The notes beneath the pieces were generated by a model. It saw only the letters and a program-made list of their open reading frames with translations. It was not told where the DNA came from and did not search any database. From positions 744,001 through 808,000 of the forward strand of contig NZ_KB911820.1 of NCBI RefSeq assembly GCF_000383675.1: a stretch of DNA of 64,000 nt, written 5' to 3'. The stretch's first letter is position 1. Every line of letters begins with the position of its first letter. The DNA comes from Terracoccus sp. 273MFTsu3.1. Its GTDB lineage: Bacteria > Actinomycetota > Actinomycetes > Actinomycetales > Dermatophilaceae. Positions 1,413-63,755 of the stretch are shown here, piece by piece. Made by a program: the position numbers and the translations under genes.

Positions 1413-1656
1413 GTTCCTCCTGATGACGCGGAGGACGTCGAGCGGGCTGGGCCCCCGGACGACACCGTGCCTGACTGGGTCGGTGTCGGCGGCGGACTCG
1501 GCTCGAGTCCCGGTGGACGCGCATCGCGCGCCCCGTGCCCCGAGCGCCGGACCGGCGGTTGCGCCACTGACGGGCGCTTGGGACACCTCGACTCTACAGC
1601 CCGGCGGGCGCTGATCGGGTCGTATGCCGCGTGCTGGCCGTGAAGTGGCCGCGCGC

Positions 1657-2406
1657 TCAGCCGATGTTGACCCCGACGAGCGCGCCGATGGCATACGTCA
1701 CGCCCATGGCGAGCAGGCCGCCGGCGACGTTGCGCAGGACCGCCCGGGTGGCCGGGCTGCGTCCGAGGCGGGCGCTGACCGCTCCGGTCAGGGCGAGGGC
1801 CGCGGCGACGCTGACCACCGTGACGTGGATCCGGATCGAGGCCGGGCTGAAGGTGATGGTGAGCATCGGCAGGATCGCGCCGACGACGAAGGCGAGCATC
1901 GAGGCGCCGGCGGCGTGCCACGGGTTGGTCAGCTCGGTCGGGTCGATGCCGAGCTCGGCCTCGGCATGCGCCGTGAGCGCGTCGTGGGCCGTGAGCTCGC
2001 GCGCGACCTCGGCGGCCAGCTCGCGGCGCATCCCCTTGGCCTCGTAGAGCTGGGTCAGCTCCTCGAGCTCGCCCTCGGGGTCCTCGTGCAGCTCCTTGCG
2101 CTCGAGCGTCAGGAGCGCGCGTTCGGAGTCACGCTGGGTGCTGACCGAGACGTACTCGCCGGCAGCCATCGACATGGCACCGGCGGACAGCGCGGCGATG
2201 CCCGCGAGGATGATCGCGGCCTTGTCGGCGGTCGCACCCGCGACGCCGACGACGACGCCGGCGGTCGACACGATGCCGTCGTTGGCGCCCAGGACGCCGG
2301 CGCGGAGCCAGTTGAGGCGCGCGCCGACGTTGGCGTCGTGCGGCTCGTCGCGGTCGTGGCCGTTGTCGACGGGCGTGGGCTCGTCGGACGCTCGCACGTC
2401 GGACAT
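1657..2406 (-). CDS. VIT1/CCC1-family iron/manganese transporter
   Basis: 249-residue membrane protein of the VIT (vacuolar iron transporter, CCC1-like) family, expected in the cytoplasmic membrane moving Fe2+ or Mn2+. Family signature at the first helix: GANDGIVSTAGVVVGVAGA around residues 40-60, then a second helix with the AGAMSMAAGEYVSVSTQ segment. A Glu-rich cytoplasmic stretch (about 95-150, RKELHEDPEGELEELTQLYEAKG) corresponds to the metal-binding helices of the family. Three more hydrophobic segments follow to the C-terminus. Start ATG at 2406 is the first Met before the conserved part; longer upstream frames are rich in Arg/Ser and look non-coding. Divergent from the hybrid kinase at 2579. 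Confidence 0.9.
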   Translation of the reverse strand: MSDVRASDEPTPVDNGHDRDEPHDANVGARLNWLRAGVLGANDGIVSTAGVVVGVAGATADKAAIILAGIAALSAGAMSMAAGEYVSVSTQRDSERALLTLERKELHEDPEGELEELTQLYEAKGMRRELAAEVARELTAHDALTAHAEAELGIDPTELTNPWHAAGASMLAFVVGAILPMLTITFSPASIRIHVTVVSVAAALALTGAVSARLGRSPATRAVLRNVAGGLLAMGVTYAIGALVGVNIG

Positions 2407-2578
2407 GGGTGGTGCTCCGATCGAGGGTGAGGCGGTGGGGAGCGGTGCCCGTCGATCGTGGCACCCGCCGGGGACGCTGTCACCGAAGGCGAGGCTCACC
2501 TGCGGTGCGCCCGCCCTCCCACGCCGAAAAGAGCGCGCCATCCGGGCGCCACGGCCCGACATGCGCGAGGATCGGGAC

Positions 2579-5773: not shown

Positions 5774-6478
5774 TCAGGTCGTCGTGGTGCTGCCGGACGA
5801 GCTCGAGTCGTCCTGGCCCGGGTCCTGGCTCGGGTCCTGGTCGGAGAACGGGTCGATGCCCTGACCGAGCTGCTGGAGCAGGTCCTGGGGGTCGAGCTGG
5901 CCCAGCTGGTTCGGGTCGATGCCGCCCAGTCCGCCACCCGGCACGCCGTTCTGGAGGTTGGGCAGCTGCTGCGGGGTCGTGCCCTGCTGGTTGGGGTTCT
6001 GGTTCGTCAGGCCCTGCTGGCCCCCCGGGAACTGGAAGCCGCGGCCACCGCCCGGACCGCGGAAGCCCGTGTCACCACCCGTCGACCCGGCGGGCATGGC
6101 GGCCGCGGCACCGATGGCACCCGCAGACGTCAGCACGAGCGCGAGCCCGGCGGTCACCGCCGTCTTCTTCGCGTTCCACCGGGGCCCGTCACCGGTCGCC
6201 GCCACGCCGGCCGGCTTCTCGCGGACCGCCCTCTCGCGGACCGGCAGGCCGGTGGGTGAGAGCGGCACGTCGGGACCGGCGAGGGGGGCCGCGGTCCCCG
6301 GCGACACGGCATACGCGTACGGCGTGGCCGGTGGCGTCACCGGCATCTCGGTCGTCGTCGCCGACGGGAGCTGCTGGGTGTCGTCGGCGGGGTGGGCGGC
6401 CGGCGCGTTCGGGTCGAACTGCGGCAGCGCGGGCGTCGGCTGCGACGCCGGGACCTGTGGCGTGGACTCGTTGCTCAT
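5774..6478 (-). CDS. single-pass membrane or secreted low-complexity protein
   Basis: 234 residues, function unknown. N-terminal half is Pro/Thr/Ala-rich and probably cytoplasmic; a single hydrophobic segment (about residues 112-136, KKTAVTAGLALVLTSAGAIG) should act as a membrane anchor or internal signal; the C-terminal half is Gln/Asn/Gly/Pro-rich (PNQQGTTPQQLPNLQNG) and ends in an acidic, Ser/Thr tail, the type of sequence found in exposed unstructured wall-associated regions. It is divergent from the response regulator at 6619, and the shared 140-base gap holds the CACAG repeats, so it is a candidate target of that regulator (inference). ATG 6478 is chosen because codons further upstream lose this composition. 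Confidence 0.7.
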   Translation of the reverse strand: MSNESTPQVPASQPTPALPQFDPNAPAAHPADDTQQLPSATTTEMPVTPPATPYAYAVSPGTAAPLAGPDVPLSPTGLPVRERAVREKPAGVAATGDGPRWNAKKTAVTAGLALVLTSAGAIGAAAAMPAGSTGGDTGFRGPGGGRGFQFPGGQQGLTNQNPNQQGTTPQQLPNLQNGVPGGGLGGIDPNQLGQLDPQDLLQQLGQGIDPFSDQDPSQDPGQDDSSSSGSTTTT

Positions 6479-7356: not shown

Positions 7357-9076
7357 GGCGGGCACCGAGCTGCCGAGCCGCGCGGACCTGCCCGACGACG
7401 ACGGCGCAGGTGCGCCCGACATCTTCCCCGAGGGTGTCGGCTTCCGTGACGAGAGCGACGACCCGATGACGTATGCCGTCCAGGCACCCGCCGCAGACAC
7501 GCCGCGTCCCGGGGCCGGCGTGGACGAGGACGCCGATGCCCGGGTGCCGCTGGGCCGGCGGCTCGCCGACGCCCGTGACCAGGTGCGTCCGTGGTCGGCC
7601 TGGACGCTGCGCGCCAAGCTCGTCGCCTCGATGCTGGCGCTCTTCACCGTCCTCAGTCTCGCGACCGGGGCCTTCACGGTCGTCGCCCTCGACCGCCAGC
7701 TGACCGGGCAGGTCGACGACCAGCTCCACGAGTCGTTCTCGCGCATCCTGAGCGGGGGGCCCCTCCCCGACTTCAGCGTGAGCGGGGACGACGAACGGCG
7801 CTTCGGAGGCCCGGGCGACGAGGGGCTCAACGCCTTCCTCCCCACGAAACCGACGAGCCTGTTCCCGACGGACGTCGGGAAGGCGACGTCACTGGACAAG
7901 CAGCCGACCAACCTCACGGCGTCGCAGCTGCAGCTCCTTGCCGGGGCGGGGCTCGGTCCCAACGCCACGGACATCGACCTCGGTGGGAACCTCGGGACCT
8001 ACCGCGTCATCGCGACGTACCAGACGCTCCGGCCGAGGGGGAGCCTCCCGACGTCGCCTGACGCGTCGCCGGGTGTCCTCGTGGTCGGACTGCCGATGGC
8101 GCAGCAGCAGCGCACCGTCCAGCAGATGGTGGTCCTCGCGATCAGCACCGTCGCAGCCGGCCTCATCCTCGTGGCCCTCATCGGGACGTGGCTCGTGCGA
8201 CGCAACCTCGAACCGCTCCGTCGACTGGCCGCGACGGCGACGAAGGTCTCCCAGACCCCGCTCGACTCGGGCAAGGTCGCGCTCGCCGAGCGGGTCGACC
8301 CCGCCGACACCGACACCCGCACCGAGGTGGGGCAGGTGGGCGCCGCCTTCAACGAGATGCTCGACCACGTCGACGAGGCGCTCAACGCCCGCCACCAGAG
8401 CGAGCAGCGGGTGCGGCAGTTCGTCGCCGACGCCTCGCACGAGCTGCGCACGCCGCTCGCCTCGATCAAGGGCTACGCCGAGCTGTCGCGTCGCGAGCCC
8501 GACCCCGTCCCGCCGACGGTGACCCACGCGATGGGCCGCATCGAGTCGGAGGCCGACCGGATGGGCTCGCTCGTAGAGGACCTGCTCCTGCTCGCGCGTC
8601 TCGACGCCGGCCGTCCTCTCGAGCAGGCCCCGGTCGACATGTCGATGCTCGTCATCAACGCCGTGAGCGACGCGCACGCGGCCTCGCCCAGCCACCGCTG
8701 GGAGCTCGACCTGCCGCCCGAGCCCGTCGAGGTGACGGGTGACGGTGCACGTCTGCACCAGGTCGTGGCCAACCTCCTCGCCAACGCGCGGACGCACACC
8801 CCGGACGGCACGCGCGTCACGACGTCGGTGCGCCCCGAGGGTGAGTGGGTGCGGGTCGCCGTCCACGACGACGGCCCGGGTGTGCCGGATGCCCTGCAGC
8901 CCAACGTGTTCGAGCGCTTCGCCCGTGGCGATGACGCGCGTGTGCGGGACGGGGGCAGCACTGGTCTGGGTCTCTCGATCGTCGCTGCGGTCAGCAAGGC
9001 GCACGGCGGTCGTGTCGAGCTCGACAGCCGACCCGGCGACACGACCTTCAGCCTGCTCCTCCCCGCCGCCACCTGA
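7334..9076 (+). CDS. membrane sensor histidine kinase, partner of the 6619 regulator
   Basis: 580 residues. A long Asp/Pro-rich cytoplasmic N-terminus (1-90) precedes TM1 (about 95-119). An extracytoplasmic sensor loop (about 120-262) follows, then TM2 (about 265-290), HAMP (290-355), HisKA with ASHELRTPL (phospho-His 369) and an ATPase domain with ANLLANARTHT, DDGPGVP and GSTGLGLSIV. The start ATG lies inside the last codons of the regulator gene with a GAGGAG box 6 bases upstream. The sensor loop resembles no domain I know, so the stimulus is unknown; downstream glycosyltransferase and GtrA genes hint at a cell-envelope signal. Confidence 0.95.
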   Translation: MSSSRPPEAGTELPSRADLPDDDGAGAPDIFPEGVGFRDESDDPMTYAVQAPAADTPRPGAGVDEDADARVPLGRRLADARDQVRPWSAWTLRAKLVASMLALFTVLSLATGAFTVVALDRQLTGQVDDQLHESFSRILSGGPLPDFSVSGDDERRFGGPGDEGLNAFLPTKPTSLFPTDVGKATSLDKQPTNLTASQLQLLAGAGLGPNATDIDLGGNLGTYRVIATYQTLRPRGSLPTSPDASPGVLVVGLPMAQQQRTVQQMVVLAISTVAAGLILVALIGTWLVRRNLEPLRRLAATATKVSQTPLDSGKVALAERVDPADTDTRTEVGQVGAAFNEMLDHVDEALNARHQSEQRVRQFVADASHELRTPLASIKGYAELSRREPDPVPPTVTHAMGRIESEADRMGSLVEDLLLLARLDAGRPLEQAPVDMSMLVINAVSDAHAASPSHRWELDLPPEPVEVTGDGARLHQVVANLLANARTHTPDGTRVTTSVRPEGEWVRVAVHDDGPGVPDALQPNVFERFARGDDARVRDGGSTGLGLSIVAAVSKAHGGRVELDSRPGDTTFSLLLPAAT

Positions 9077-9160: not shown

Positions 9161-11242
9161 ATGGACACGATGACCCTCACCACCACGGGCCCCGCGGGCA
9201 GCACCGCGCCGGCGCCCGTCGGGCCGGCGGACGCCCGCCCCCAGACCACGCAGCCCGCCAGCCGTGCGGGTCGTCCCGGCCGGCTCCAGCGCCTCTGGCG
9301 CGGAGCCGACGCCGACCCGTCGTGGGCGCGCCCCGCGCTCCTCGGCCTGCTGCTCGTCACGCTCGTGCTCTACACGTGGAACCTGACGGCGAGCGGCTAC
9401 GCGAACTCCTTCTACTCCGCGGCCGTCCAGGCGGGCAGCGACAGCTGGAAGGCATTCTTCTTCGGCAGCTCCGACGCCGCGAGCTCGATCACCGTCGACA
9501 AGCCGCCGGCCTCCCTGTGGGTGATGGCCCTCTCGGTGCGGCTCCTCGGTCTCAGCTCCTTCGCGATCCTGCTGCCGCAGGCGCTCATGGGTGTCGCGAC
9601 GGTCGGCGTCGTCTACGCGACGGTCAAGCGCCACTTCGGCGCGGCGGCCGGACTCATCGCCGGTGTCGTCCTCGCGTTGACGCCCGTCGCGGCGTTGATG
9701 TTCACCTTCAACAACCCCGACGCGCTCCTGACGCTCCTCATGGCGCTCGGCGCCTGGGCCACGATCAAGGCGATCGAGCAGGCTTCGCCGAAGTGGATGA
9801 TGATCGTCGGCGTCTTCGTCGGCCTCGGCTTCCTCACCAAGACCCTCCAGGTCCTGCTCGTCGTGCCCTTCTTCGGGCTCGCTTACCTCGTCGCGGCCCC
9901 GACGACGCTGCGCAAGCGGATCGTCCACTCGCTGCTCGCCGTCGGCACCATGGTCCTCTCGGCCGGCTGGTGGGTCGCGATCGTCGAGCTCGTGCCGGCC
10001 TCGGCCCGTCCCTACATCGGTGGTAGCCAGACCAACTCGTTCCTCGAGCTGACCTTCGGCTACAACGGCCTCGGTCGCCTCAGCGGTGACGAGACCGGCT
10101 CGGTCGGCGGTGGCGGAGCGACCGCAGGTGGAGGCATGTGGGGCTCGACGGGCCTCTTCCGGATGTTCTCCTCGAGTGTCGGCGACCAGGTCTCGTGGCT
10201 CATCCCGAGCGCGCTGATCCTGCTCGCCGCCGGCCTCTGGCTGCGCGGCCGTCGCCCGCGCACCGACCTGCGCCGCGCCGCCTACCTCGTCTGGGGAGGC
10301 TGGCTCGTCGTCACGATGCTCGTCTTCTCCTTCATGGCCGGCATCTTCCACGAGTACTACACGGTGGCGCTGGCCCCCGCGATCGGTGCGGTCGTCGGCA
10401 TGGGTGCGGTCGAGGCCTGGCAGCGCCGTTCGAGCGCGGTCGGCACGATCGCCCTCGCGGCGGCGACCGCGGCCGCCGCGACGTGGAGCTTCATCCTGCT
10501 GTCACGGACGACGGCCTACGGCGACTGGCTGCGCATCTCGGTCCTCGCGGTCGGCATGGCCGCCGCCCTGCTCATCCTCGCGACCCGCTGGATGCACGCC
10601 CGCGCCGTCCCGTTCGTGCTTGCCGCGGCCCTCGTCGCGGGCCTCGCCGGCCCGGGTGCGTATGCCGTGTCGACCACGGCCCAGGGCCACAGCGGGTCCA
10701 TCGTGACCGCCGGACCCGCCGGACCCGCCGGCTCCAGCCGCGGCCCCGGTGGTGCCGGCGGCCCGGGCGGCACGCCGCCGCAGCTGCCCGGCCAGACCGG
10801 CACGACCCAGCAGGGCGCCAACGGCACGACGCAGGGCGGTCCGCAGACGGGTGGGGCCGGTGGCGGCATGGGCGGTCTGCTCGACGCCTCGACGCCGAGC
10901 ACGGCAGTCGTCGCGGCCCTCTCGGCCGATGCCGGAAGCTACACGTGGGTCGCCGCAGCCGTCGGATCCCAGACGGCGGCCGGTCTGCAGCTCGGCACGC
11001 AGCTGCCCGTGATGGCGATCGGAGGATTCAACGGCTCCGACCCGAGCCCGACGCTCGCGCAGTTCCAGCAGTACGTCGCGAACGGCCAGATCCACTACTT
11101 CGCCGGTGGCGCAAGGGGATTCGGCAACCAGAACGGTGGCAGCAGCGCCTCGTCGGAGATCAGCTCGTGGGTGCAGGCGAACTTCACCCCGGTCACGATC
11201 GACGGCTCGACGTTCTACGACCTGACCCAGCCCCTCCAGTGA
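9161..11242 (+). CDS. ArnT-like GT39 family glycosyltransferase
   Basis: 693-residue polytopic membrane enzyme, expected to transfer a sugar from a polyprenyl-phosphate carrier on the outer face of the membrane. A cytoplasmic Pro/Ala-rich N-terminus precedes TM1 (about 57-72); the acceptor/donor loop contains ASGYANSFYSAAVQ and the family motif DKPP (113-116), followed by about ten further helices. After residue 500 a Gly/Pro/Gln/Thr-rich linker (about 510-580) leads to a conserved soluble C-terminal domain (about 585-693, VVAALSADAGSYTWVAA to the end), as in actinobacterial ArnT-like proteins. ATG 9170 is an alternative start. GtrA follows with a 4-base overlap, a common pairing in glycan modification. 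Confidence 0.88.
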   Translation: MDTMTLTTTGPAGSTAPAPVGPADARPQTTQPASRAGRPGRLQRLWRGADADPSWARPALLGLLLVTLVLYTWNLTASGYANSFYSAAVQAGSDSWKAFFFGSSDAASSITVDKPPASLWVMALSVRLLGLSSFAILLPQALMGVATVGVVYATVKRHFGAAAGLIAGVVLALTPVAALMFTFNNPDALLTLLMALGAWATIKAIEQASPKWMMIVGVFVGLGFLTKTLQVLLVVPFFGLAYLVAAPTTLRKRIVHSLLAVGTMVLSAGWWVAIVELVPASARPYIGGSQTNSFLELTFGYNGLGRLSGDETGSVGGGGATAGGGMWGSTGLFRMFSSSVGDQVSWLIPSALILLAAGLWLRGRRPRTDLRRAAYLVWGGWLVVTMLVFSFMAGIFHEYYTVALAPAIGAVVGMGAVEAWQRRSSAVGTIALAAATAAAATWSFILLSRTTAYGDWLRISVLAVGMAAALLILATRWMHARAVPFVLAAALVAGLAGPGAYAVSTTAQGHSGSIVTAGPAGPAGSSRGPGGAGGPGGTPPQLPGQTGTTQQGANGTTQGGPQTGGAGGGMGGLLDASTPSTAVVAALSADAGSYTWVAAAVGSQTAAGLQLGTQLPVMAIGGFNGSDPSPTLAQFQQYVANGQIHYFAGGARGFGNQNGGSSASSEISSWVQANFTPVTIDGSTFYDLTQPLQ

Positions 11243-11760
11243 CGACGGTGACGACGGTGACGAGCACGTCGGACTCCGCGCCGGTGTCCCGAGCCCGCCT
11301 CTCGCAGCAGGTCATCCGCTTCGCCGGCGTCGGAGTCGTCTCCACCGCCCTGCACCTCGGCCTCTTTGCGGCCCTGGTGCGGGGCGGTGCCCCGTCCCAG
11401 CTGGCCAACGGCGTTGCCCTCGTCATCGCCACGGTCGTCAACACCGGCCTCAACCGGGCCTGGACCTTCGGGGTGTCGGGGCGCCGCAACCTCGTGACGC
11501 ACCACGGTCAGGCTCTCGTCATCTTCGCGATCACGTATGCCGCCACGACCGTCGCGCTCGCGGTGCTCGGCGCGCTCGCACCGTCCGCGGGGACGCTCGT
11601 CCAGACCCTCGTCGTCGCCGTGGCCAACGTCCTGTCGACGGCGCTGCGGTTCGTGGCGATGCGCCGGTGGATCTTCCGCACACCGGCCGGCCCGACGGAC
11701 CGCCACGACCCGGCATACGCGAGCAGTGGTGTGCTCGAGAGCCCGCCGGGCGAGCACTGA
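11239..11760 (+). CDS. GtrA-family membrane protein
   Basis: 173 residues with four predicted helices (about 25-45, 52-70, 90-115, 122-142), typical of GtrA proteins that help flip or present polyprenyl-phosphate-linked sugars. Conserved features seen: VIRFAGVGVVSTALHLGLF, NTGLNRAWTF and a C-terminal RFVAMRRWIF. The start is within a tandem repeat holding three in-frame GTG codons at 11239, 11248 and 11257; GTG 11239 overlaps the GT39 stop as GTGA. Position after the glycosyltransferase implies it supplies or positions the same lipid-linked sugar (inference). Confidence 0.88.
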   Translation: MTTVTTVTSTSDSAPVSRARLSQQVIRFAGVGVVSTALHLGLFAALVRGGAPSQLANGVALVIATVVNTGLNRAWTFGVSGRRNLVTHHGQALVIFAITYAATTVALAVLGALAPSAGTLVQTLVVAVANVLSTALRFVAMRRWIFRTPAGPTDRHDPAYASSGVLESPPGEH

Positions 11761-18962: not shown

Positions 18963-21185
18963 CTAGGAGCCCCGGCCCTCCTGGAGTATGCCGTCGCCTC
19001 GGTCCGTGACGACCGTGACGTCGTCGGGTGCGCTGAGCACCTCGACGTCACCGTCGGCGGAGACGGCGAGGTCGACGCGGCCGCCGCAGAATCGCAGTCC
19101 CTCGACGCGGAGTGCCCCGTAGGGAGCCGGTCGCACTGGAGAGAGACGCAGCGTGCGGGTGGCCGCGTCGGGTCGCGGGCGGAGCGCCACGGTGAGCAGC
19201 GCGACGGCGGACGCGGCGGACCACGCCTGCGGCCGGCACGACGCCGGGTAGGGCGTCGGCGCGCCGGCCAGCGCGAGACCCGAGTAGAGCTCGGGCCAGC
19301 GGTAGGAGAAGGCCTCGGCCGACGCGAGCAGGGTCCGTGCGACCTCGCTGGCCTCGGCGCCGAATCCCTCACGGGACAAGCCGATCGCCGTGATCGCGGT
19401 GTCGTGGGTCCAGATCGAGCCGGTGTGGTAGCCGATGGGGTTGAAGCCGCCGTTGCCCGTGCCGAAGGTGCGGACCCCGAAGTCGTCGAGCAGCTCGGGG
19501 CCGGTGACGGTCGCGGCCACGGCCGCGGCCTCGGCCGGGGTCAGGGCGCCCGTGCCGAGCACGTGGCCCATGTTGGACCCGAGCCCGTCGACCGCTCGGC
19601 CCGCGCCGTCGAGGGCGATCGCGAGGTGGTGGCCCGCGTCGGTGTCGACCCAGAAGCGCTCACGCAGCCGGCCCTCGAGGGCCGTCGCCGCGGCGCCGGC
19701 GGCGTCGGCCTCGGTGCCGTCGTCACCGAGCGACCGGTGGAGGCGCGCGGCCGCGCGGAGGGCCTCGACGGCATACGCCTGCGCCTCGACGAGCGCGATG
19801 GGGGCGTCGGCGACCGTGCCGTCGCGCCACCGGATCGAGTCGCCGGAGTCCTTCCAGCCCTGGTTGGCCAGGCCGGTGCCGGACGTGTCGAGGTACTTGA
19901 GCAGGCCGTCGTCGTCGGGCTGGCCGTCGCCGGTCAGCCACGCGACGGCGGACCGGAGGGCCGGCAGCAGGATGCGCGCCCGCTCGGGCGGCAGCCCCCA
20001 GTCGCACGCCTCGGCGAGCAGGCAGACCCAGAGGGCGGTCGCGTCGACGGTGCCGTAGTAGACCTGCGGCAGCGTCATGCCCGTGGTCGTGTCGCGGTGC
20101 ACGTGGCGGCGCAGCTCGTGCGGGATCTTGCCGGGCGCCTCGCCCGTGACGGGGTCGTGCGTCCTGCCCTGGCGTCGGGCGAGAGTGTGCAACGTGCCCT
20201 CGGCCAGCGCGGTGCCGAAGGGCAGCAGCATGCGTGCCGTCCAGATGGAGTCGCGGCCGAAGAGCGTGAGGTACCAAGGGGTTCCGGCTGCGGCGAAGAC
20301 GTGCTCGGGCGACAGCGGGTCGCGCAGGACGAGGTGTCGCAGGTCGTCGAGGCCGTGCTCGACCGTGCGCGCGAGCCGGTGGTCCTGGGCGGTGACGCGC
20401 ACGTCGTCCCAGGCCAGTGCGTCGGAGCCGGGATCGGCGTCGAAGGCGGAGGCCTGCAGCCGCTCGGTGGTGACGCGGAGGCAGACGGAGGCCGTGCGGC
20501 CGGGCTCGACGACGAGCGTCGTCTCGAGCGCGACGGAGCCGTCGTCTCCCGGCCGCACGGCCACGGTGGTGCCCGCCGGGAGCCCCTCGAGGGCGACGGT
20601 CGTGCGGTGCCAGTCGTCGGCGAGGACGAGGCCGTCGGCCGTCGCGGTGGCCGCGGTGGCGGGACCGCTGAGGTGGCCGGACTTCACGGCGCCGATGTCG
20701 AGACCGTCACCGGCGACGACGAGTCTCACGGGAGCGTGCACCGTCTGCGCGGCCCGCGAGGTGATGGCGACGTGCTCGGTGAGGGTGCGGGCGCCCGACC
20801 CGAGCAGGCGCCTGCTGCGGAGCACCTCCACGGTCGGGTCGGGGCCGGGGTTGCCCAGCCCGCGCGCGGCTGCGGCGTAGTCGGCGCCGGCACCCGACGC
20901 GCGCTCGGCCACGAAGGCCGGGGTCTCGCCGGCGACCTCGAGGCGCAGGGTGCCGAGGATGCGTCGGTCGTCGACGTAGAGCCCCTGGCTCGTGCCGGGC
21001 CGCACGTCACCCGAGCGGTCCGAGAGCACCGTCGCGTTCCCGTCGACGACGATGGACAGCTCGTGCAGCCAGGGCTGGCGAGGGGGGAGCGGCGCGTCGC
21101 GCTTGGATCGTCGGGCGTTGTTCTCGCCTGATGGAGCGGGGCTCCGGGGTGTCGACAGGGGGTGTAGCTCTTCGTCGATCTTCAT
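18963..21185 (-). CDS. glycogen-debranching-type amylo-alpha-1,6-glucosidase
   Basis: 740 residues. N-terminal GDE-like beta domain (about 40-240: LSIVVDGNATVLSDRSGDV, GLYVDDRRILGTLRL) and a C-terminal (alpha/alpha)6 barrel of the MGH1/GH63-like fold (about 300-650: TPWYLTLFGRDSIWTARMLLPFG, GKIPHELRRHVH, NQGWKDSGDSIRWRDG, GFNPIGYHTGSIWTHDTAI, RPQAWSAASAV). Expected to hydrolyse alpha-1,6 or related glucosidic bonds in storage or extracellular polysaccharide; cytosolic. The start ATG 21185 has only a weak ribosome site and is 5 bases downstream of the stop of a low-GC gene on the same strand. The TrxR-like gene follows by 10 bases. Confidence 0.85.
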   Translation of the reverse strand: MKIDEELHPLSTPRSPAPSGENNARRSKRDAPLPPRQPWLHELSIVVDGNATVLSDRSGDVRPGTSQGLYVDDRRILGTLRLEVAGETPAFVAERASGAGADYAAAARGLGNPGPDPTVEVLRSRRLLGSGARTLTEHVAITSRAAQTVHAPVRLVVAGDGLDIGAVKSGHLSGPATAATATADGLVLADDWHRTTVALEGLPAGTTVAVRPGDDGSVALETTLVVEPGRTASVCLRVTTERLQASAFDADPGSDALAWDDVRVTAQDHRLARTVEHGLDDLRHLVLRDPLSPEHVFAAAGTPWYLTLFGRDSIWTARMLLPFGTALAEGTLHTLARRQGRTHDPVTGEAPGKIPHELRRHVHRDTTTGMTLPQVYYGTVDATALWVCLLAEACDWGLPPERARILLPALRSAVAWLTGDGQPDDDGLLKYLDTSGTGLANQGWKDSGDSIRWRDGTVADAPIALVEAQAYAVEALRAAARLHRSLGDDGTEADAAGAAATALEGRLRERFWVDTDAGHHLAIALDGAGRAVDGLGSNMGHVLGTGALTPAEAAAVAATVTGPELLDDFGVRTFGTGNGGFNPIGYHTGSIWTHDTAITAIGLSREGFGAEASEVARTLLASAEAFSYRWPELYSGLALAGAPTPYPASCRPQAWSAASAVALLTVALRPRPDAATRTLRLSPVRPAPYGALRVEGLRFCGGRVDLAVSADGDVEVLSAPDDVTVVTDRGDGILQEGRGS

Positions 21186-22963: not shown

Positions 22964-23071
22964 GCCCCATCCTTACCCATGAGCGGCCGTCCGGCCGCAG
23001 TGGTATGCCGTGCGGCACGTCCCATTGAGACGTAAACCATTGTGGGACAGTCGTTTTCGTGTGGACGACTC

Positions 23072-38182: not shown

Positions 38183-38395
38183 ATGGGGTCGACTCGTCGC
38201 AAGGCCGTCGTCGTCACGGCGCTCATGGCGTATGCCGTCCTGCTCGCCGTCGGGCCACGTGTCCTCGGCGGGTCGGCCGGGGTCGTCATCCTCGTGGCGA
38301 GCTTCGTCGTGGGCTTCGCCTGGCTCGTGCTGCTCGTCGCTCCGTGGGCGGCACGAGGGGCGGCGCGCGGCCGCGACCGTAGTCTGAGGCCGTGA
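38183..38395 (+). CDS. small two-helix membrane protein
   Basis: 70 residues with two hydrophobic segments (VVVTALMAYAVLLAVGPRVL and VVILVASFVVGFAWLVLLVAPWA) separated by a short Gly/Ser turn, basic ends. ATG 38183 is preceded by GAGGGGGAG 2-3 bases upstream. It overlaps the next gene by 4 bases (GTGA), so it is expressed with the phosphatase-like enzyme. No family recognised. Confidence 0.7.
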   Translation: MGSTRRKAVVVTALMAYAVLLAVGPRVLGGSAGVVILVASFVVGFAWLVLLVAPWAARGAARGRDRSLRP

Positions 38396-39885: not shown

Positions 39886-39941
39886 AGATCATGGGGTATG
39901 CCGCGTGGTGGAGTCACGTGGTCACGTGGCGTCACGTCGCC

Positions 39942-43551: not shown

Positions 43552-44153
43552 GCGCTCGCCCCCTTCGCGAGGGCGGCGGGTGACCCGGCCACGTCGTCGA
43601 CCGTGGGCGCGCGACGGACCGCGGCTGCCGGCATACGGCTCAGGGTGGACTCGACGTGGTCGAGCCAGCGGACCTCCGCCTCGGCGGCGAAGAGGAGGTT
43701 CTCGAGGACGAGCTGCCAGGCGAGGTCGTGCGCGTCGGGCTCGTCGCTCGCCCGGCTCTTGAGCCGGGTCAGGTCGCGCAGGTGCTTCAGCGTGGCCGTG
43801 CGCTGCGTCTGGACGACACGCGGGACGTCGACACCGGGCGCGGTGACGGCGAGGGCGAGCTTGATCACGAGCTCGTCGCGGGGCGTCGAGTCGCGGTCGA
43901 CCGGGGTGAGCCACCACGCGTCGATCTCGGTGCGACCGGCGTCGGTGAGTCGGTAGGCGATGCGCCCCTCGTCGTCGCTGCCGCCGACCGGCTCGACGAG
44001 GCCGTCGCGCTCGAGCCGGGCGAGGGTCGTGTAGACCTGACCGACGTTGAGCGGCCACGTGCCGCCGGTGCGTGCCTCGAACTCGCTGCGCAGCCGGGCG
44101 CCGTACATCGGCTCCTCGGCGAGCAGTGCGAGCAACCCCTGCTTGACGGACAT
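43548..44153 (-). CDS. PadR-family transcriptional repressor
   Basis: 201 residues. N-terminal winged helix (MSVKQGLLALLAEEPMYGARLRSEFEARTGGTWPLNVGQVYTTLARLERDGLVE) and C-terminal Vir_act_alpha_C-type helical dimerisation domain. A ribosome site AGGGGG stands 7 bases before the ATG. Controls the downstream ABC exporter by binding the paired ATAC-N3-GTAT sites just upstream (inference from position and PadR precedent such as LmrR). Effector unknown. Confidence 0.93.
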   Translation of the reverse strand: MSVKQGLLALLAEEPMYGARLRSEFEARTGGTWPLNVGQVYTTLARLERDGLVEPVGGSDDEGRIAYRLTDAGRTEIDAWWLTPVDRDSTPRDELVIKLALAVTAPGVDVPRVVQTQRTATLKHLRDLTRLKSRASDEPDAHDLAWQLVLENLLFAAEAEVRWLDHVESTLSRMPAAAVRRAPTVDDVAGSPAALAKGASA

Positions 44154-45949: not shown

Positions 45950-46666
45950 CTATTGACCTGCGGTCCGAGCACGCACGAGCGCCCCGCCGGGCGTCGCCGG
46001 GTCCGGCGTGACGTGCCACACGCGCCCGGCGCCCGACACCGCGCCGTCCGACCGCAGGAGCGTCCCCTCGTCGAGCGCGACTCCGCTCGGGGCCAGCCCC
46101 GCGGCCACCGCGGCGACGAGTCGCGAGACGTTGCCCCACTGGGCGGCGTGCACGTCGACGGCTCCCGGCACGAGGCCGATGCCTCCGACCACGGCGACGT
46201 CGTCGAGGTCCTCGTTGCTGTCCTCCGGGCAGACCGGCCGCCCGTCGAGGAGCCAGCCGCCGATGACGGCGTGGGAGCCGGCGATGGCCGCACCCGCGGA
46301 GAACCCGGCATACGGCATCCCTGCGGACACCAGCGCGCGGATCCGGTGGTAGCTGCCCGCGAGTGACGCGTGGTACTCCGGCGTGGGGCCGCCGCCGACG
46401 AAGAGGCCGTCGACCCCGTCGAGGACCGCCGGGTCCAGCGGCGTGCCCTCGGCCACCCGCTCGACGACGAGGTCGTGGCCACCCACGAGACCGAGCGTGT
46501 GGACGTACTTCTCGTGGTACTCGAGCGACTCGGGATCCGTGCCCATGACGACGAGCAGGATGCGCGGGGTGTTGACGGCGCGGCGCGCGGCGGCCTCGAC
46601 GAAGGGTCCGTAGAGCGTGGGGGCGAGGGTGTCGTCCCAGCCGCCGCCGATGAGGTGGACGTCCAT
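45950..46666 (-). CDS. S51-family peptidase (peptidase E/cyanophycinase-like)
   Basis: 238 residues. The class I glutamine-amidotransferase-like fold is seen with GLFVGGGPTPEYH, nucleophile elbow YAGFSAGAAIAG (Ser) and a later HAAQWG. Peptidase E hydrolyses Asp-X dipeptides; cyanophycinase branches cleave beta-Asp-Arg, so the exact substrate is open. Leaderless start inferred from TAGGGT exactly 6 bases before ATG 46666. Its end is close (11 bases) to the oxidoreductase start, but the latter has its own -10. Confidence 0.88.
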   Translation of the reverse strand: MDVHLIGGGWDDTLAPTLYGPFVEAAARRAVNTPRILLVVMGTDPESLEYHEKYVHTLGLVGGHDLVVERVAEGTPLDPAVLDGVDGLFVGGGPTPEYHASLAGSYHRIRALVSAGMPYAGFSAGAAIAGSHAVIGGWLLDGRPVCPEDSNEDLDDVAVVGGIGLVPGAVDVHAAQWGNVSRLVAAVAAGLAPSGVALDEGTLLRSDGAVSGAGRVWHVTPDPATPGGALVRARTAGQ

Positions 46667-47577: not shown

Positions 47578-49161
47578 ATGAACGCAGCACCTGCCACCGC
47601 CGCCCACTCGGTGACCGGCGCCGGCACCGTCACGGTCGGCACCGGTCCGCTCTCCCTCGACGACGTCGTCGCCGTCGCCCGCCACGACGCCCGGGTCGAG
47701 CTGTCCGCCGACGCCGAGGCCGAGATCGCCCGCAGCCGCACCGTCATCGAGGACCTCGCGAACGACACCGTCGCCCACTACGGCGTCTCGACCGGCTTCG
47801 GCGCGCTCGCGACCCGTCACATCCCGACGGCGCTGCGCGCCCAGCTGCAGCGCTCGCTCGTGCGCTCGCACGCCGCCGGCGCCGGGCCCGAGGTCGAGCG
47901 CGAGGTCGTGCGCGCCCTCATGCTGCTGCGCCTGTCGACCCTCGCGACGGGCCGCACCGGCGTCCGCCTCGAGACCGCGAGGACGTATGCCGCCCTGCTC
48001 AGTGCCGGCATCACGCCCGTCGTGCACGAGTACGGTTCGCTCGGCTGCTCCGGCGACCTCGCGCCGCTGTCGCACTGCGCGCTCGCCGCGATGGGCGAGG
48101 GGCCGGTGCGCCTCGCCGACGGCACGCTCACCGACGCGGCAACCGCCCTGCGTGACAACGGGATCGAGCCGGTCGTCCTCGCCGAGAAGGAGGGCCTCGC
48201 CCTCATCAACGGCACCGACGGCATGCTCGGCATGCTCGTCCTCGCGATCCACGACCTGCGCCACCTGCTCAAGGTCGCCGACGTGTCGGCCGCGATGAGC
48301 GTCGAGGGCCTGCTCGGCTCCGACAGCGTCTTCGCGCCCGACCTGCACGCGCTGCGACCCCAGGTGGGTCAGGGCGAGTCGGCTGCGAACATCCTGGCCG
48401 TCATGGCGGACTCGCCGATCCGGGACTCGCACCGCACTGAGGAGTGCACCCGCGTGCAGGACGCCTACTCGCTCCGCTGCGCGCCGCAGGTGCACGGCGG
48501 CGCCCGTGACACGGTCGAGCACGCCGCCCGCGTCGCCGCGGCCGAGCTGGCCTCGGCCGTCGACAACCCCGTCGTCACCCCCGACGGCCGGGTCGAGTCC
48601 AACGGCAACTTCCACGGCGCGCCCGTCGCCTACGTCCTCGACTTCCTCGCCATCGTCGCGGCCGACGTCGCCTCGATGTCCGAGCGCCGGTCCGACCGCT
48701 TCCTCGACCAGGCTCGCAACCACGGCCTGCCGCCCTTCCTCGCCGACGACCCCGGCGTCGACTCGGGCCTCATGATCGCGCAGTACACCCAGGCCGCCAT
48801 GGTCTCGGAGATGAAGCGCCTCGCCGTCCCCGCGTCGGTCGACTCCATCCCGAGCTCGGCCATGCAGGAGGACCACGTGTCGATGGGCTGGTCGGGTGCC
48901 CGCAAGCTGCGCCGCTCCGTCGACGCGCTCGGCCGCGTCCTCGCCATCGAGGTGCTGACGGCGGCGCGCGGCATCCAGCTGAGGTCCCCGCTCGAGCCGT
49001 CGCCCGCCACCGGTGCGGTCATCGCCGCGCTGTCCGCTCGCACGAACGCGGCCCCGGGGCCCGACCGCTTCCTCGCCCCCGACATCGAGGGCGCCCACCG
49101 GGCGGTGACCGACGGGGACGTCCTCGCCGCCGCTGAGTCCGTCACCGGCCCGCTCCGCTGA
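47578..49161 (+). CDS. hutH: histidine ammonia-lyase
   Basis: 527 residues. Converts L-histidine to trans-urocanate and ammonia, first step of histidine breakdown. The prosthetic MIO group is formed from residues 157-159, here Cys-Ser-Gly in [14 protein letters not shown], instead of the usual Ala-Ser-Gly. Other conserved blocks: [55 protein letters not shown]. Start ATG 47578 lies just after the palindrome region. First gene of a plus-strand hut cluster; hutU follows after 44 bases. Confidence 0.97.
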
Positions 49162-50861: not shown

Positions 50862-50898
50862 GAGGGCGTATGCCGTCCGGTGGGGTCGTGCGGGCCGC

Positions 50899-55996: not shown

Positions 55997-57409
55997 TCAG
56001 TCGAGCAGCACCCGCTCGCCGAGGCGGGGCACCGAGACCGCACAGTCGAACCGTTCGCGTATGCCGTCCGCCAGCGCCCGCGCGGCCGCGGGCTCCCCGT
56101 GGACGACGTGGACGCTCTCCGGGGGGTGTGGCATCTCGCCGATCCAGGTGAGCAGCTCGTCGGCGTCGGCGTGCACCGAGAAGTCGTCGAGGGTGACGAC
56201 CTCGGCCCGCACCGGCACGTAGCGTCCGGCCATCTTCAGCTCGCGAGCCCCCTCCTGCAGGTCGCGGCCCCGGGTGCCGATGGCCTGGTAGCCCGTGAGC
56301 AGCACGGTGTTCCGCGACTGGGGCAGCAGGTGGCGCAGGTGGTGCACGACCCGGCCGCCGGTCGCCATGCCGGAGGCCGACACGATGATGCACGGCGTGC
56401 CCGGGGTGTTGAGCCGGATCGACTCCTCGGCGGTGTGCGCGGTCCGCAGGCCGGACAGCCGACGCAGCCGGTCGAGGGCGCCCGGCCGCACCTCCGCTGC
56501 GTGGGTCGGGTCGCGGTAGATGTCGAGCGCCGCGAGGGCCATCGGGCTGTCGACCCACACCGGCACGTCGGGGATCGCGCCGCTCCGGACGAGGTCGGCG
56601 ATGGCGAGCAGGACGATCTCGGTGCGGTCGACGGCGAAGGCCGGCACGACGACGCTGCCGCCTCGCCTGATCGTGCGCCGGATCGCGTCGGCCATGACGT
56701 GGTGCTCCGGGTCGACCTCGGGGTGTGCGCGGTCGCCGTACGTCGACTCGACGACGACGGTGCGGGCCGCCGGCGGTCGGGCGCGGGGAAGCAGCACCGG
56801 GTGGTCCGGGCGCCCGAGGTCACCGGAGAAGAGGACGCTCGCCCCGTCGACCTCGACGAGCACGCTCGAGCTGCCGAGGATGTGGCCGGCCGGCACGAAG
56901 GTCACGGTGGCGCCGTTCGGGCCGCCCACGCGTACGGCCGCGTCGTCGCCGACCGGGCGCAGTGCCGCGACGGCCACGTCGGCGTCACCGACGGTGTAGA
57001 GCGGCAGAGGCGGGTCGTGCCGCGACCAGCCGCCCCGCCGGGCGCCCTCGGCCTCCTCCTCCTGCAGGTGCGCGCTGTCGCGCAGGATGACGGCCGCGAG
57101 CGCCGCGGTCCCGGACGTCGCGTGCACCGGTCCGCCGAAGCCGCCCCGGACGAGCGCCGGCAGGTACCCGCAGTGGTCGAGGTGGGCGTGGGTCAGGGCC
57201 ACGGCGTCGACCGATGCTGGGTCGACCGGCGGCGCCTCCCAGTTGAGCGACCGCCAGCGCCGCTCGCCCTGGTAGAGGCCGCAGTCGACCATGAGTCTCG
57301 CGCCCTCGCTCTCGACGAGGAACTTGCTGCCCGTGACGGTCCCGGCCGCGCCGAGGAACGTCAGTGCCGGCGCCGGTCCGTGCCGTTCGGGTCTCCCGTG
57401 ACTGCTCAT
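55997..57409 (-). CDS. MBL-fold beta-CASP RNA-type hydrolase
   Basis: 470 residues. Metallo-beta-lactamase motifs TFLGAAGTVTGSKFLVESEGARLMVDCGLYQG, LTHAHLDHCG, VPAGHILGSSS, LFSGDLGR; beta-CASP motifs A-C (VVESTYGDRAH, PAFAVDRTEIVLL, VSASGMATGGRVVHHL) and the late FSVHAD and VVHGE. Related to YSH1/CPSF73-like bacterial nucleases (KH-free). Expected to cleave RNA, substrate unknown. GAGGAGGGG before ATG 57409 supports the start. Confidence 0.93.
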   Translation of the reverse strand: MSSHGRPERHGPAPALTFLGAAGTVTGSKFLVESEGARLMVDCGLYQGERRWRSLNWEAPPVDPASVDAVALTHAHLDHCGYLPALVRGGFGGPVHATSGTAALAAVILRDSAHLQEEEAEGARRGGWSRHDPPLPLYTVGDADVAVAALRPVGDDAAVRVGGPNGATVTFVPAGHILGSSSVLVEVDGASVLFSGDLGRPDHPVLLPRARPPAARTVVVESTYGDRAHPEVDPEHHVMADAIRRTIRRGGSVVVPAFAVDRTEIVLLAIADLVRSGAIPDVPVWVDSPMALAALDIYRDPTHAAEVRPGALDRLRRLSGLRTAHTAEESIRLNTPGTPCIIVSASGMATGGRVVHHLRHLLPQSRNTVLLTGYQAIGTRGRDLQEGARELKMAGRYVPVRAEVVTLDDFSVHADADELLTWIGEMPHPPESVHVVHGEPAAARALADGIRERFDCAVSVPRLGERVLLD

Positions 57410-57571: not shown

Positions 57572-58756
57572 GTGAGCGAGGGGAGTGTCTACGACTGGCT
57601 GCAGCGCCGGCCGATGCTCCTCGACGTCCCGCTGGCGGTCTGCCTCGCGCTCCTCGGGCTCGTCGTCCTCGGCGAGGGTCACGGCCTCGGCTGGGCAGTC
57701 GTGGGACTCTCCAACCTCGCGCTCATCTGGAGGCGTTCCCACCCGGCCACGGCGTTCGCGGTCGTCAGCGTCGCCCTCGCGCTCCGGGTCGTCCCGACGA
57801 CCAACCTGCTTCCCGGTGACATCGCCTTCCTCGTCGCGCTCTACTCGCTCGCCGCCTACGACCGTCGCCGCGGCGTGCGCCTCGCCGGTCTCGGCGTCGC
57901 GGCCCTCGGGTCGGCCATCGCCGGTGCACGGTTCAGCGCCGTCAGCGGTCGCGTGCCCGGTCCCGGCGAGTTCATCTTCACCTTCGTCGCCTGCGCCGCG
58001 GCCTCTCTCGCGGCGTGGGCGCTCGGCGACCTCAAGCGTGCCCGCCTCCAGCGCCTCGCCGACCTCCAGGACCGCGCCGAGCGGGTCGAGCGCGAGCGCG
58101 AGCAGGCCCTCCGGCTGGCCGCCCAGCAGGAGCGCGCGGCCATCGCCCGCGAGATGCACGACGTCGTGGCGCACGCGCTGTCGGTCATCGTCGTGCAGGC
58201 CGACGGCGCCGCGTATGCCGCCGAGCGGAGCCCCGAGGGCGCGCTCGCCCGGTCGGTGGGCGCACTCGAGACCATCGGGTCGACGGCCCGCGACGCCCTG
58301 ACCGAGACCCGTCGCCTCGTCGGGGTGCTGCGCGACCCCGAGTCGGGCGTCGAGCTCGCACCGACGGGTGGGGTCGCCCAGCTCGACGACCTCGTCTCAG
58401 GAGTCCGCGCGGCCGGGGTCCCGGTGGTGCTGACAATCCGGGGCGCGGAGCGCGCCCGGCCCGTGGGACTCGACCTCGCGGCATACCGCGTCGTCCAAGA
58501 GGCGCTGACCAACGTCATCAAGCACGCCGGTCCGGCCGCGAGCGCCGTCGTCGACGTCGAGCAGACCGACGAGGTGCTGCGGATCTCCGTGTGCGACGAC
58601 GGGGTCGGGGCGCGCAGCGTCGACGACGGGCGCGGTCACGGGCTGCCCGGGATGCGCGAGCGCGTCGCCGTGCACGGTGGCACGCTGACGGCCGGGCCGC
58701 GTGCGGGCGGCGGCTTCGAGGTGCTCGCGACGATGCCGACGGACAGAGAGCGGTGA
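57572..58756 (+). CDS. NarL-type sensor histidine kinase (HisKA_3)
   Basis: 394 residues. Four or five N-terminal membrane helices (about 18-165), a short coiled-coil (LQRLADLQDRAERVEREREQALRLAAQQ), then the HisKA_3 box AIAREMHDVVAHALSVIVVQ (phospho-His in MHDVV) and an HATPase with VVQEALTNVIKHA, GVGARSVDDGRGHGLPGMRERVAVHGG. DesK-like sensor of membrane or envelope state. TAGGCT lies 7 bases before GTG 57572 (leaderless). Overlaps its partner regulator by 4 bases. Confidence 0.93.
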   Translation: MSEGSVYDWLQRRPMLLDVPLAVCLALLGLVVLGEGHGLGWAVVGLSNLALIWRRSHPATAFAVVSVALALRVVPTTNLLPGDIAFLVALYSLAAYDRRRGVRLAGLGVAALGSAIAGARFSAVSGRVPGPGEFIFTFVACAAASLAAWALGDLKRARLQRLADLQDRAERVEREREQALRLAAQQERAAIAREMHDVVAHALSVIVVQADGAAYAAERSPEGALARSVGALETIGSTARDALTETRRLVGVLRDPESGVELAPTGGVAQLDDLVSGVRAAGVPVVLTIRGAERARPVGLDLAAYRVVQEALTNVIKHAGPAASAVVDVEQTDEVLRISVCDDGVGARSVDDGRGHGLPGMRERVAVHGGTLTAGPRAGGGFEVLATMPTDRER

Positions 58757-60195: not shown

Positions 60196-60810
60196 ATGTC
60201 CACGACCATCACCGCGAGCGGTCCGCTGACCCGCTGGCGCACCATCGACCTGCTCACCTGTGCCTTTCTCGGCGTCGCCTTCGGCGTCGCGTACTGGGCC
60301 TGGGGGCTCGTCTACGCCGTCCCGTCGAACGCCGTGTCGGCGGCCTTCCCGCCCCTCGGCGCCCTCTTCAACTGGCCCTGGCTCGTCGCCGGCATCGTCG
60401 GCATGCTCATCATCCGGCGCCCCGGAGCGGCCGTCTTCACCGAGCTCCTGGCGGCCGTCGTGTCGGCGCTCATCGGCACGCAGTGGGGCCTGACCACGCT
60501 CGTCTCGGGCCTCGTCCAGGGGCTCGGCGTCGAGCTCGGCTTCGCCGCCTTCGCGTATGCCGTCTACAGCTGGGCGCCGCTGCTGCTCGGTGGCTTCCTC
60601 GGTGGCGCCTTCGAGGCCGTCTACGAGTGGTACTCCTACTGGACCGACTGGGGCTGGGGCTACAAGGTCTCCTACCTGCTCCTGCTCGGTGCGTGCGTCG
60701 CCGTCCTCGGCTCGCTCGTCGCCGTCGGCCTGACGCGACTGCTCGCCGCGGCGGGTGCGCTCAACCCGTTCCCTCCGGGCCAGGAGGTCCGCGAGCAGCG
60801 GGCCGTCTGA
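60196..60810 (+). CDS. ykoE: ECF transporter substrate-binding (S) component, YkoE family
   Basis: 204 residues, about six membrane helices (TIDLLTCAFLGVAFGVAYWAWGLVY, FPPLGALFNWPWLVAGIVGMLIIR, GAAVFTELLAAVVSALIG, GVELGFAAFAYAVYSWAPLLLGGFLGGAFEAVYEWYSY). YkoE binds thiamine or its hydroxymethylpyrimidine precursor and works with the ECF module YkoD/YkoC. GGGAGAC precedes ATG 60196. The TPP riboswitch upstream confirms the thiamine role. Confidence 0.92.
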   Translation: MSTTITASGPLTRWRTIDLLTCAFLGVAFGVAYWAWGLVYAVPSNAVSAAFPPLGALFNWPWLVAGIVGMLIIRRPGAAVFTELLAAVVSALIGTQWGLTTLVSGLVQGLGVELGFAAFAYAVYSWAPLLLGGFLGGAFEAVYEWYSYWTDWGWGYKVSYLLLLGACVAVLGSLVAVGLTRLLAAAGALNPFPPGQEVREQRAV

Positions 60811-63163: not shown

Positions 63164-63218
63164 CGCCCTCGCGGGGCACAATGGGCGGCGCACACCTGCC
63201 GACAGGAAGGGGCCGCAC

Positions 63219-63755
63219 GTGCCCATGCCAGGCCGACCCCGCCGAGCCACCCGGACCCACCGCACCCCGAGGGCGTATGCCGTCCCGACCATCGCGCTGG
63301 GCCTGTCCGTGTCGCTCGTGCTGGCGATCTCCGGCTGCGGCCAGCCCGCCCCGTCGTCGCCCGACGACGCCGTGGCGCCGACGGTGAGCGTCCCCGTCCA
63401 GCCGACGATCACGGCCGAGACCCCGAGCGACGACGTGCCCGACCCCGTCGACACGACCGACCCCGGCGACGGTGGCCTCTTCGACGCCGCTTCGAGCCTC
63501 ACCGGGGCGACGTGTGCGCCCACGGGCGAGTCGTGGAGCTTCACCGGCACCCTCACGAACTCCGACACGCAGGAGCACACGTTCACCGTGGCGGTCTTCA
63601 TCGTCAAGACCTCCGACGGCTCGGACGTCGCCGGCAAGGAGGTCGAGGTCAAGCTCGCCGCCGGAGCCACCGCGCCGGTCTCCATCAAGGACTTCCACAC
63701 CGGGCCGAGCAAGGGCGTCGAGTGCCTGAGCGGCGTCACGGTGAAGGGCCTCTGA
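63219..63755 (+). CDS. lipoprotein with C-terminal beta domain
   Basis: 178 residues. A basic n-region and hydrophobic segment (VPTIALGLSVSLVLAIS) end in the lipobox ISGC, so the mature protein is lipidated and surface-exposed. A Pro/Thr/Asp-rich linker precedes a small beta-sandwich-like domain (WSFTGTLTNSDTQEHTFTVAVFIVKTSDGSDVAGKEVEVKLAAGATAPVSI) typical of FxLYD-type domains. Function unknown. Start GTG 63219 has AGGAAGG 8 bases upstream; ATG 63225 also possible. Confidence 0.85.
   Translation: MPMPGRPRRATRTHRTPRAYAVPTIALGLSVSLVLAISGCGQPAPSSPDDAVAPTVSVPVQPTITAETPSDDVPDPVDTTDPGDGGLFDAASSLTGATCAPTGESWSFTGTLTNSDTQEHTFTVAVFIVKTSDGSDVAGKEVEVKLAAGATAPVSIKDFHTGPSKGVECLSGVTVKGL

Follow-up and report, generated by a model that had tools for sequence, protein, structure and literature searches.

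What keeps a single eight-letter word dense along an actinobacterial chromosome? This question is raised by a 64-kb stretch of the Terracoccus sp. 273MFTsu3.1 genome (contig NZ_KB911820.1, positions 744,001 to 808,000; hereafter the window, i.e., this stretch at its full length), in which the octamer GTATGCCG recurs both within genes and between them. A first-pass annotation of the window had proposed that the octamer behaves as a genome-wide functional word, with recombination, segregation, uptake or modification as conceivable roles. Its enrichment in genes of both senses and in intergenic DNA, together with its maintenance between species, supports that proposal. In AlaRS, the source genome shares 97% identity with Terrabacter sp. 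Root181 and Intrasporangiaceae bacterium URHB0013 (followed by a record at 84%), and by inference from sequence the source organism would be a Terrabacter.

Abundance and genic context of the octamer

The window contains 29 copies of GTATGCCG, of which 17 are forward and 12 reverse, the first at 1622 and the last at 63275–63282, where an order-2 Markov model expects 1.0 for both strands together. The initial count of about 29 copies was therefore exact, as was the observation that the GTATGCC heptamers continue with G (17/17 forward and 12/13 reverse). Counted over the whole genome (4.94 Mb, 18 contigs), the word occurs 2,244 times (1,133 forward and 1,111 reverse), and a control consisting of its letters read backwards occurs 257 times. 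In a 464-kb genome sample, composed of the window and 20 stretches of the source genome (labeled G000), 230 copies were found against 10.2 expected from an order-3 model, or 2.0 when the copies themselves were masked from that model. The annotated enrichment of "tenfold or more" was thus true but an underestimate, and the genome-wide count and higher-order Markov comparison that had been proposed as a check confirmed the excess rather than yielding counts near the Markov expectation.

Within the 464-kb sample, GTATGCCG was the strongest octamer outlier, and the outlier lists for words of 6 to 10 letters were all headed by it or by words overlapping it. Its flanks showed a weak preference for a preceding C (70%) and a following T or C (84%), the commonest extended form being (C)GTATGCCG(T/C). 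One extension, GTATGCCGTC, accounted for 68 of the 230 sampled copies and has ATGCCGTC in common with the AT-DUS of Neisseria (DUS, DNA uptake sequence). This overlap is taken as a coincidence, since the CTG core required in Neisseria is absent from GTATGCCGTC.

To place the copies relative to genes, a crude, purpose-written gene caller was used (with no ribosome-site model and with uncertain starts). By these calls, 112 of the sampled copies were genic in the sense orientation, 63 were genic antisense, 52 were intergenic and 3 lay across gene edges. Intergenic DNA makes up 14.7% of the sample and would be expected to hold only 1.8–2.6 copies, so that the excess persists there instead of vanishing, the outcome that the annotation had named as refuting. 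Its claim that the word lies in coding sequence of both senses also held, although the number of intergenic places in the window had to be raised from five to seven (i.e., 1622, 23003, 27000, 38230, 39896, 50868, and 63275).

Inside genes, the word adopted a preferred frame, with 106 of the 112 sense copies reading xxG TAT GCC Gxx (Tyr-Ala) and 16 of the 63 antisense copies reading xxC GGC ATA Cxx. Among 115,394 codons in genes of at least 600 bp, TAT was used 149 times and ATA 23 times, in line with the earlier suggestion that the word forces codons that are rare elsewhere in genes. The further suggestion that more than a Tyr-Ala codon preference is involved was likewise upheld by the intergenic copies.

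Maintenance and turnover between genomes

The window was aligned with the corresponding 60-kb regions of five same-genus genomes (G001, G003, G006, G007, and G008; the other three were left out), the Terrabacter label of G001–G008 resting on their listing as the same genus as the source genome. In total, 93 of 106 aligned octamers were identical to GTATGCCG, i.e., 19/21 in G006, 23/24 in G008, 19/23 in G007, 14/18 in G001, and 18/20 in G003. The corresponding identity for all octamers was 0.51, 0.67, 0.63, 0.33, and 0.42, respectively, and octamers of equal A+T content gave 0.41–0.72 in the five genomes. Base identity was 0.98–0.995 inside the word versus 0.83–0.93 in its flanks in four of these genomes, and 0.90 versus 0.80 in the most distant one. 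Intergenic copies were kept in 19 of 21 cases against a baseline of 0.467, and genic copies in 74 of 85 against 0.529. Moreover, the Tyr codon TAT was retained in 50/50 cases inside the word versus 18/33 elsewhere; codon preference as its cause was ruled out because intergenic copies are abundant and TAT is kept within the word. The octamer is thus maintained between species far beyond its surroundings.

Four of the 29 window copies align with none of the five genomes. Accessory window DNA (aligned with at most one of the five) holds 4 copies in 6.8 kb, and core DNA (aligned with four or five) holds 19 in 41.7 kb. The window copies are listed below with their strand and with conservation given as identical sites among the same-genus genomes aligned, out of five.

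1622..1629, + strand, intergenic GTATGCCG, identical in 3/3 aligned
6307..6314, − strand, GTATGCCG, identical in 5/5
7471..7478, + strand, GTATGCCG, identical in 3/5, one gapped
10660..10667, + strand, GTATGCCG, identical in 5/5
11535..11542, + strand, GTATGCCG, identical in 5/5
11711..11718, − strand, GTATGCCG, identical in 4/5, one gapped
18986..18993, + strand, GTATGCCG, identical in 4/4 aligned
19769..19776, − strand, GTATGCCG, identical in 3/3 aligned
23003..23010, + strand, intergenic GTATGCCG, identical in 3/3 aligned
26297..26304, − strand, GTATGCCG, no relative aligned
27000..27007, + strand, intergenic GTATGCCG, identical in 3/5
27547..27554, − strand, GTATGCCG, no relative aligned
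28983..28990, + strand, GTATGCCG, identical in 5/5
29387..29394, − strand, GTATGCCG, identical in 5/5
31256..31263, + strand, GTATGCCG, identical in 4/5
33101..33108, − strand, GTATGCCG, identical in 2/3 aligned
35221..35228, − strand, GTATGCCG, identical in 2/5, the rest being GTAGGCCG or GAAGGCCG
36873..36880, − strand, GTATGCCG, identical in 5/5
38230..38237, + strand, intergenic GTATGCCG, identical in 4/4 aligned
39896..39903, + strand, intergenic GTATGCCG, no relative aligned
43629..43636, − strand, GTATGCCG, no relative aligned
46306..46313, − strand, GTATGCCG, identical in 3/4 aligned
47985..47992, + strand, GTATGCCG, identical in 5/5
50868..50875, + strand, intergenic GTATGCCG directly 3′ of the urocanase gene, identical in 4/4 aligned
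56059..56066, + strand, GTATGCCG, identical in 2/2 aligned
58213..58220, + strand, GTATGCCG, identical in 5/5
58479..58486, − strand, GTATGCCG, identical in 3/5, the rest being GTAGGCCG
60555..60562, + strand, GTATGCCG, identical in 4/4 aligned, also present in G058 of another genus
63275..63282, + strand, intergenic GTATGCCG, identical in 2/2 aligned

As a side observation, positions 55997–57292 of the window encode a metallo-beta-lactamase (MBL)/beta-CASP protein. In NCBIfam it matches best a type VII CRISPR "Cas14" model and an aCPSF1-type ribonuclease, in both cases well below the cut-off.

Among 61 genomes of the window's family, 39 carried at least 150 copies of GTATGCCG per Mb (625 to 4,724 copies, G015 being the densest with 4,724), and the remaining 22 carried no more than 81 per Mb (7 to 293 copies). 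The cut at 150 per Mb was chosen after this gap in the counts was seen. All 9 genomes of the window's genus were word-positive, and other genera with several members were consistent as well. In one survey of the order, 22 of 34 family genomes were word-positive, and by our reading none of the 362 genomes from other families reached 150 copies per Mb. The word is thus confined to one family within the order, to which the genome-wide counts were restricted.

Named loci found via AlaRS (80, of which 74 were long enough to be counted) gave a similarly patchy picture. Copies of GTATGCCG numbered 11 in ca. 22 kb for Terrabacter, 15 for Intrasporangium oryzae, 28 for Knoellia koreensis, 17 for Janibacter sp. 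HTCC2649, 16 for Pedococcus bigeumensis, and 12 for Serinicoccus. None were present at the loci of Janibacter massiliensis, Luteipulveratus, Arsenicicoccus, Marihabitans, and Piscicoccus, and counts were low at three Phycicoccus loci (0–2) and in Ornithinimicrobium laminariae (3). A 40-row AlaRS tree, built from the source genome and 39 of the 80 loci, requires 7 changes of the word label. The AlaRS tree (L052–L131) also splits the window's family into groups mixed with other families. Because AlaRS does not follow family lines, the tree did not serve as a species phylogeny. Judging from these sequences, alaS could have been transferred horizontally in the Terrabacter/Intrasporangium line.

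Related genera carry variants of the word. Genomes G011 and G012 use GTATGNCG (GTATGCCG, GTATGACG, and GTATGGCG, and in G011 also GTATGTCG), and GGATGCCG reaches 3,949 copies in G034 and 3,816 in G024 versus 260–1,336 in the other family genomes compared. A 420-kb sample of G034 held 411 copies of GGATGCCG, which is enriched between genes there too. The urocanase DNA of G034 is 91% identical to that of the window, so in this one gene the two are close. None of the 11 aligned GTATGCCG sites of the window is kept in G034, and of the 34 GGATGCCG sites of G034 that align to the window, 4 are the same there and none is GTATGCCG; the G034 dialect therefore stands at its own, independent sites. Dialects between related genera thus exist.

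Beyond the window's family, a second family (f19) is dense in GGATGCCG, with 22 of 33 genomes above 500 copies per Mb and the other 11 at 147–495 per Mb; by our reading, none of the other 363 genomes outside f19 in the same survey exceeded 500 per Mb. The highest f19 count was 4,831 copies (G130), other examples being L247 and G073. The word-negative genera G100 and G209 carry the unrelated CGAAGGGG, with 39 copies in 40 kb (L258 and L259) and 16 copies in 20 kb (L257), respectively. In G100, 12 of the 39 copies are intergenic (10 with alternative gene calls), and the genic ones occur on both strands. No word of comparable strength was found in 60–80 kb each of G018, G022, and G027. A milder excess, extending into intergenic DNA, was seen in G032 (L044, L164, L165, and L241) and G031 (L043) for the CGTACG-containing octamers GGCGTACG and GTCGTACG, which are possibly another word. 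Finally, the Tetrasphaera metagenome-assembled genome at L079 combines 18 copies of GGATGCCG with 7 of GTATGCCG in 22.7 kb, and is perhaps in transition between dialects.

A candidate uptake word and its rivals

Orientation and spacing bear on what might read the word. Over 20 stretches of G000, GTATGCCG was found 101 times forward and 100 times in reverse, and over 20 stretches round the chromosome of the single-contig genome G034, GGATGCCG was found 183 and 207 times, respectively, with near-equal strands in each stretch. The strand-bias test proposed in the annotation thus revealed no Chi- or KOPS-type orientation bias (KOPS, FtsK-orienting polar sequences) in these stretches, as scored by chromosome position and not against the replication origin, which was not located in the G034 analysis. 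Copies per 20 kb averaged 10.05 with a variance of 7.5 in G000 (lower-tail p-value of 0.23) and 19.5 with a variance of 12.9 in G034 (p-value of 0.14). Regular spacing was dropped as an explanation, since both variances fall below their means but not significantly so, and no difference from random spacing was detected for either word in these two genomes.

Neighboring copies at most 45 bp apart were inverted in 30 cases and direct in 8 (binomial p-value of 0.0002; 4:1 in G000, 13:4 in G034, and 13:3 in 65 further stretches), with one inverted pair counted twice within the 30 because the same place recurs in near-identical strains. Close pairs are as numerous as random placement predicts (5 versus 4.6 in G000, and 17 versus 17.0 in G034), and therefore their orientation alone is unusual. 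Six hand-picked intergenic pairs were predicted to form stems extending the word (−33.6 to −57.7 kcal/mol, z-scores of −2.8 to −10.2); 3 of 200 shuffles folded as well as the predicted hairpin for one pair, and none did for the other five. Close inverted pairs in terminator-like hairpins are a known trait of DNA uptake sequences and of uptake signal sequences (USS).

The reading we favor, with moderate confidence, is that GTATGCCG serves these Gram-positive actinobacteria as a DNA uptake sequence comparable to those of Neisseria and Haemophilus. We infer that the reader is an uptake machine, probably of the Tad/Flp–ComEA–ComEC kind, and that recombination of incoming DNA maintains the word. 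Free DNA bearing GTATGCCG would preferentially be taken up via a Tad/Flp-type competence pilus, ComEA, and ComEC. Recombined fragments would thus carry the word more often than not, by which copies would spread and broken copies be repaired, up to an endpoint of this drive at about one copy every 1–2 kb. An altered reader specificity could give rise to a new dialect (such as GTATGNCG or GGATGCCG), and the old word would decay once uptake is lost or a new reader takes over. Some close inverted copies may also serve as hairpins between genes. A bolder extension holds that switchable uptake words span at least two Actinomycetes families, with a word per genus (GTATGCCG, GTATGNCG, GGATGCCG, or the unrelated CGAAGGGG) that would be read by a Tad/Flp pilus component and whose changes would isolate genera; we put it forward tentatively, as somewhat doubtful. 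Among the four roles suggested in the annotation, uptake fits best, segregation is disfavored by the lack of polarity, and modification is weakened by the methyltransferase data given below.

The genomic inventory is compatible with such a machine. ComEC was found in 36/36 family genomes, and T2SSE-family ATPases in 60/60 at an E-value of at most 0.001 (59 above the cut-off). PilM, of the type IVa pilus, occurred in only 2/36 family genomes, on which ground the type IVa pilus was rejected as the uptake machine and Tad/Flp became the candidate. The source genome encodes ComEC, a ComEA with SLBB and HhH domains, and three Tad loci that include TadE/Tad-type pilins; at one of these loci the TadE match falls below its cut-off, and the other Tad names were assigned by reading of the sequences. 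A high-scoring TadA subclass appeared by eye, among the matches listed, to be commoner in word-positive genomes and seemingly missing in several. When the proteins of the source genome were compared with those of G034, most matched neighbors in the com locus and in one tad locus were 70–90% identical, and lower values were found for ComEA (60%), ComEC (65%), a TadE-like pilin (62%), and a TadZ-like protein (44%).

Several results weigh against an uptake word. The comparison with G034 singled out no reader protein among the com and tad products. Moreover, word-negative genera possess ComEC and T2SSE ATPases as well, so that these are permissive rather than diagnostic of the word. The accessory window DNA shows no depletion of GTATGCCG, though an uptake word would be expected to be scarce in DNA of recent acquisition, so that this result does not help. 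A bias toward gene ends, which Pasteurellaceae have, was looked for and not found, and to these come the random spacing and random number of close pairs. Of 37 word-positive genomes, 8 contain the phage capsid family PF05065, at 9 places in total, around which the word occurred 9 times versus 26.1 expected from host density within ±3 kb, 14 versus 33.9 within ±4 kb, 21 versus 41.6 within ±5 kb, and 35 versus 64.8 within ±8 kb. The lower density in capsid neighborhoods speaks for an uptake word, and its small size (only ca. 2.4-fold) against one; the effect is read as a reduction and not as absence because prophage borders were not determined. Searches with phage terminase and capsid proteins yielded no phage of the family's hosts among the matches listed. 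Finally, a literature search by title and start of abstract turned up nothing on uptake or transformation in these genera among the papers listed, and a search of titles and, in part, starts of abstracts found no work on the word or on actinobacterial uptake sequences among those listed.

The word might alternatively behave like the highly iterated palindromes (HIPs, such as HIP1) of cyanobacteria, with a methyltransferase marking a core, methylation-guided mismatch repair driving neighboring bases to the full word, and dialects following methyltransferase changes. Cyanobacterial HIPs are likewise very dense, patchy, and sporadically replaced by other words (PMC4390886), but they are palindromic, which GTATGCCG and its dialects are not. 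The methyltransferase families PF00145 and PF01555 were found in 34/59 and 23/59 family genomes, respectively, and 12 word-positive genomes, most of them drafts, lack both of these two families searched (G004, G006, G007, G011, G015, G029, G030, G034, G069, G344, G387, and G414). This set includes the densest genome (G015) and the GGATGCCG genome G034, and weakens an origin in modification, so that we consider a HIP1-like process unlikely. A Chi-like hotspot word for an AdnAB/RecBCD-type nuclease, or another repair word aiding double-strand break repair, would have a chromosome-internal role that fits the genome-wide spread, the maintenance between species, and the similar density in core and accessory window DNA. 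Chi usually favors the leading strand, however, while the strands are near equal in every sampled part of the G034 chromosome, and a universal repair enzyme would not be expected to have dialects of its word, or to lose it, between related genera; we regard such a role as quite unlikely.

A binding site for a chromosome-organizing or segregation protein (KOPS, nucleoid-associated, or related to the structural maintenance of chromosomes proteins) would agree with the finding that none of the 20 stretches sampled in two genomes is without the word. Nevertheless, the missing strand polarity disfavors a KOPS-type segregation role, the spacing is no more regular than random, and word switching between close genera and loss in others is hard to reconcile with a housekeeping factor, making this explanation improbable. 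A neutral origin through mutation bias or codon preference could account for the dominance of the single Tyr-Ala frame among the sense copies, but not for the 52 intergenic copies, the use of the rare codons TAT and ATA, or the conservation far above the flanks in same-genus genomes. In addition, the 24 one-letter neighbors of GTATGCCG are not depleted overall (320 observed versus 231 expected, with several counts small and some single neighbors at 0), contrary to a single repair bias; mutation bias or a bias resembling very short patch (VSP) repair was rejected on this basis. Neutral origin is refuted by the conservation and the intergenic excess unless the mutation process also holds sites constant across species, and we deem it highly improbable.

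Relation to known uptake systems

The DNA uptake sequences of Neisseriaceae are short, extremely overrepresented, and conserved within species, with eight dialects in one family that share a core (PMC3630211). Like them, the actinobacterial word is family-wide, patchy, and in dialects; unlike them, it occurs in Gram-positive hosts and lacks the CTG core required in Neisseriaceae (PMC3630211). A further difference is that no ComP-type reader is known for GTATGCCG, the candidate machine for the putative uptake being Tad/Flp. With the uptake signal sequences of Pasteurellaceae (PMC2346458), the word shares copy numbers of hundreds to thousands and one orientation that is commoner in reading frames (here 112 sense versus 63 antisense), but it differs in having no gene-end bias and in belonging to another phylum and envelope type, and the GGATGCCG genome G034 is slightly more antisense (146 versus 115 sense).

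The cyanobacterial HIP1 and other HIPs resemble the word as genome-wide octamers at ca. one per kb that are patchy and at times replaced by another word (PMC4390886). HIPs are palindromes and generally accompanied by a matching methyltransferase (PMC4390886), in contrast to the non-palindromic GTATGCCG, which had no consistent partner among the two methyltransferase families searched. In Micrococcus luteus, Tad/Flp together with ComEA/EC has been shown to act as an uptake machine; transformation requires two tad clusters, and the system includes the comEA/comEC locus (PMC4322843). This organism belongs to the same phylum and, like the source genome, combines two or more tad clusters with comEA/comEC; as a difference, the text of that paper never uses the term "uptake sequence" (PMC4322843). 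Taken together, the word is non-palindromic, non-polar, both genic and intergenic, and constant across species, and related genera have one-letter variants of it; in this it resembles the uptake sequences of Neisseriaceae and Pasteurellaceae.

To our knowledge, uptake sequences are established in only two Gram-negative families, and their origin and change are disputed. If the uptake reading is true, GTATGCCG would belong to the first uptake-sequence system outside the Gram-negatives that we know of. It would also provide a second independent set with several dialects and a different pilus, on which the drive model could be tested afresh, as well as a practical approach to natural transformation in Terrabacter, Knoellia, Janibacter, Pedococcus, and their relatives, i.e., the inclusion of the word in donor DNA. 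Even with a reader unrelated to uptake, an eight-letter word that is constant across species and swapped wholesale between genera would mean a strong and unexplained selection on these genomes.

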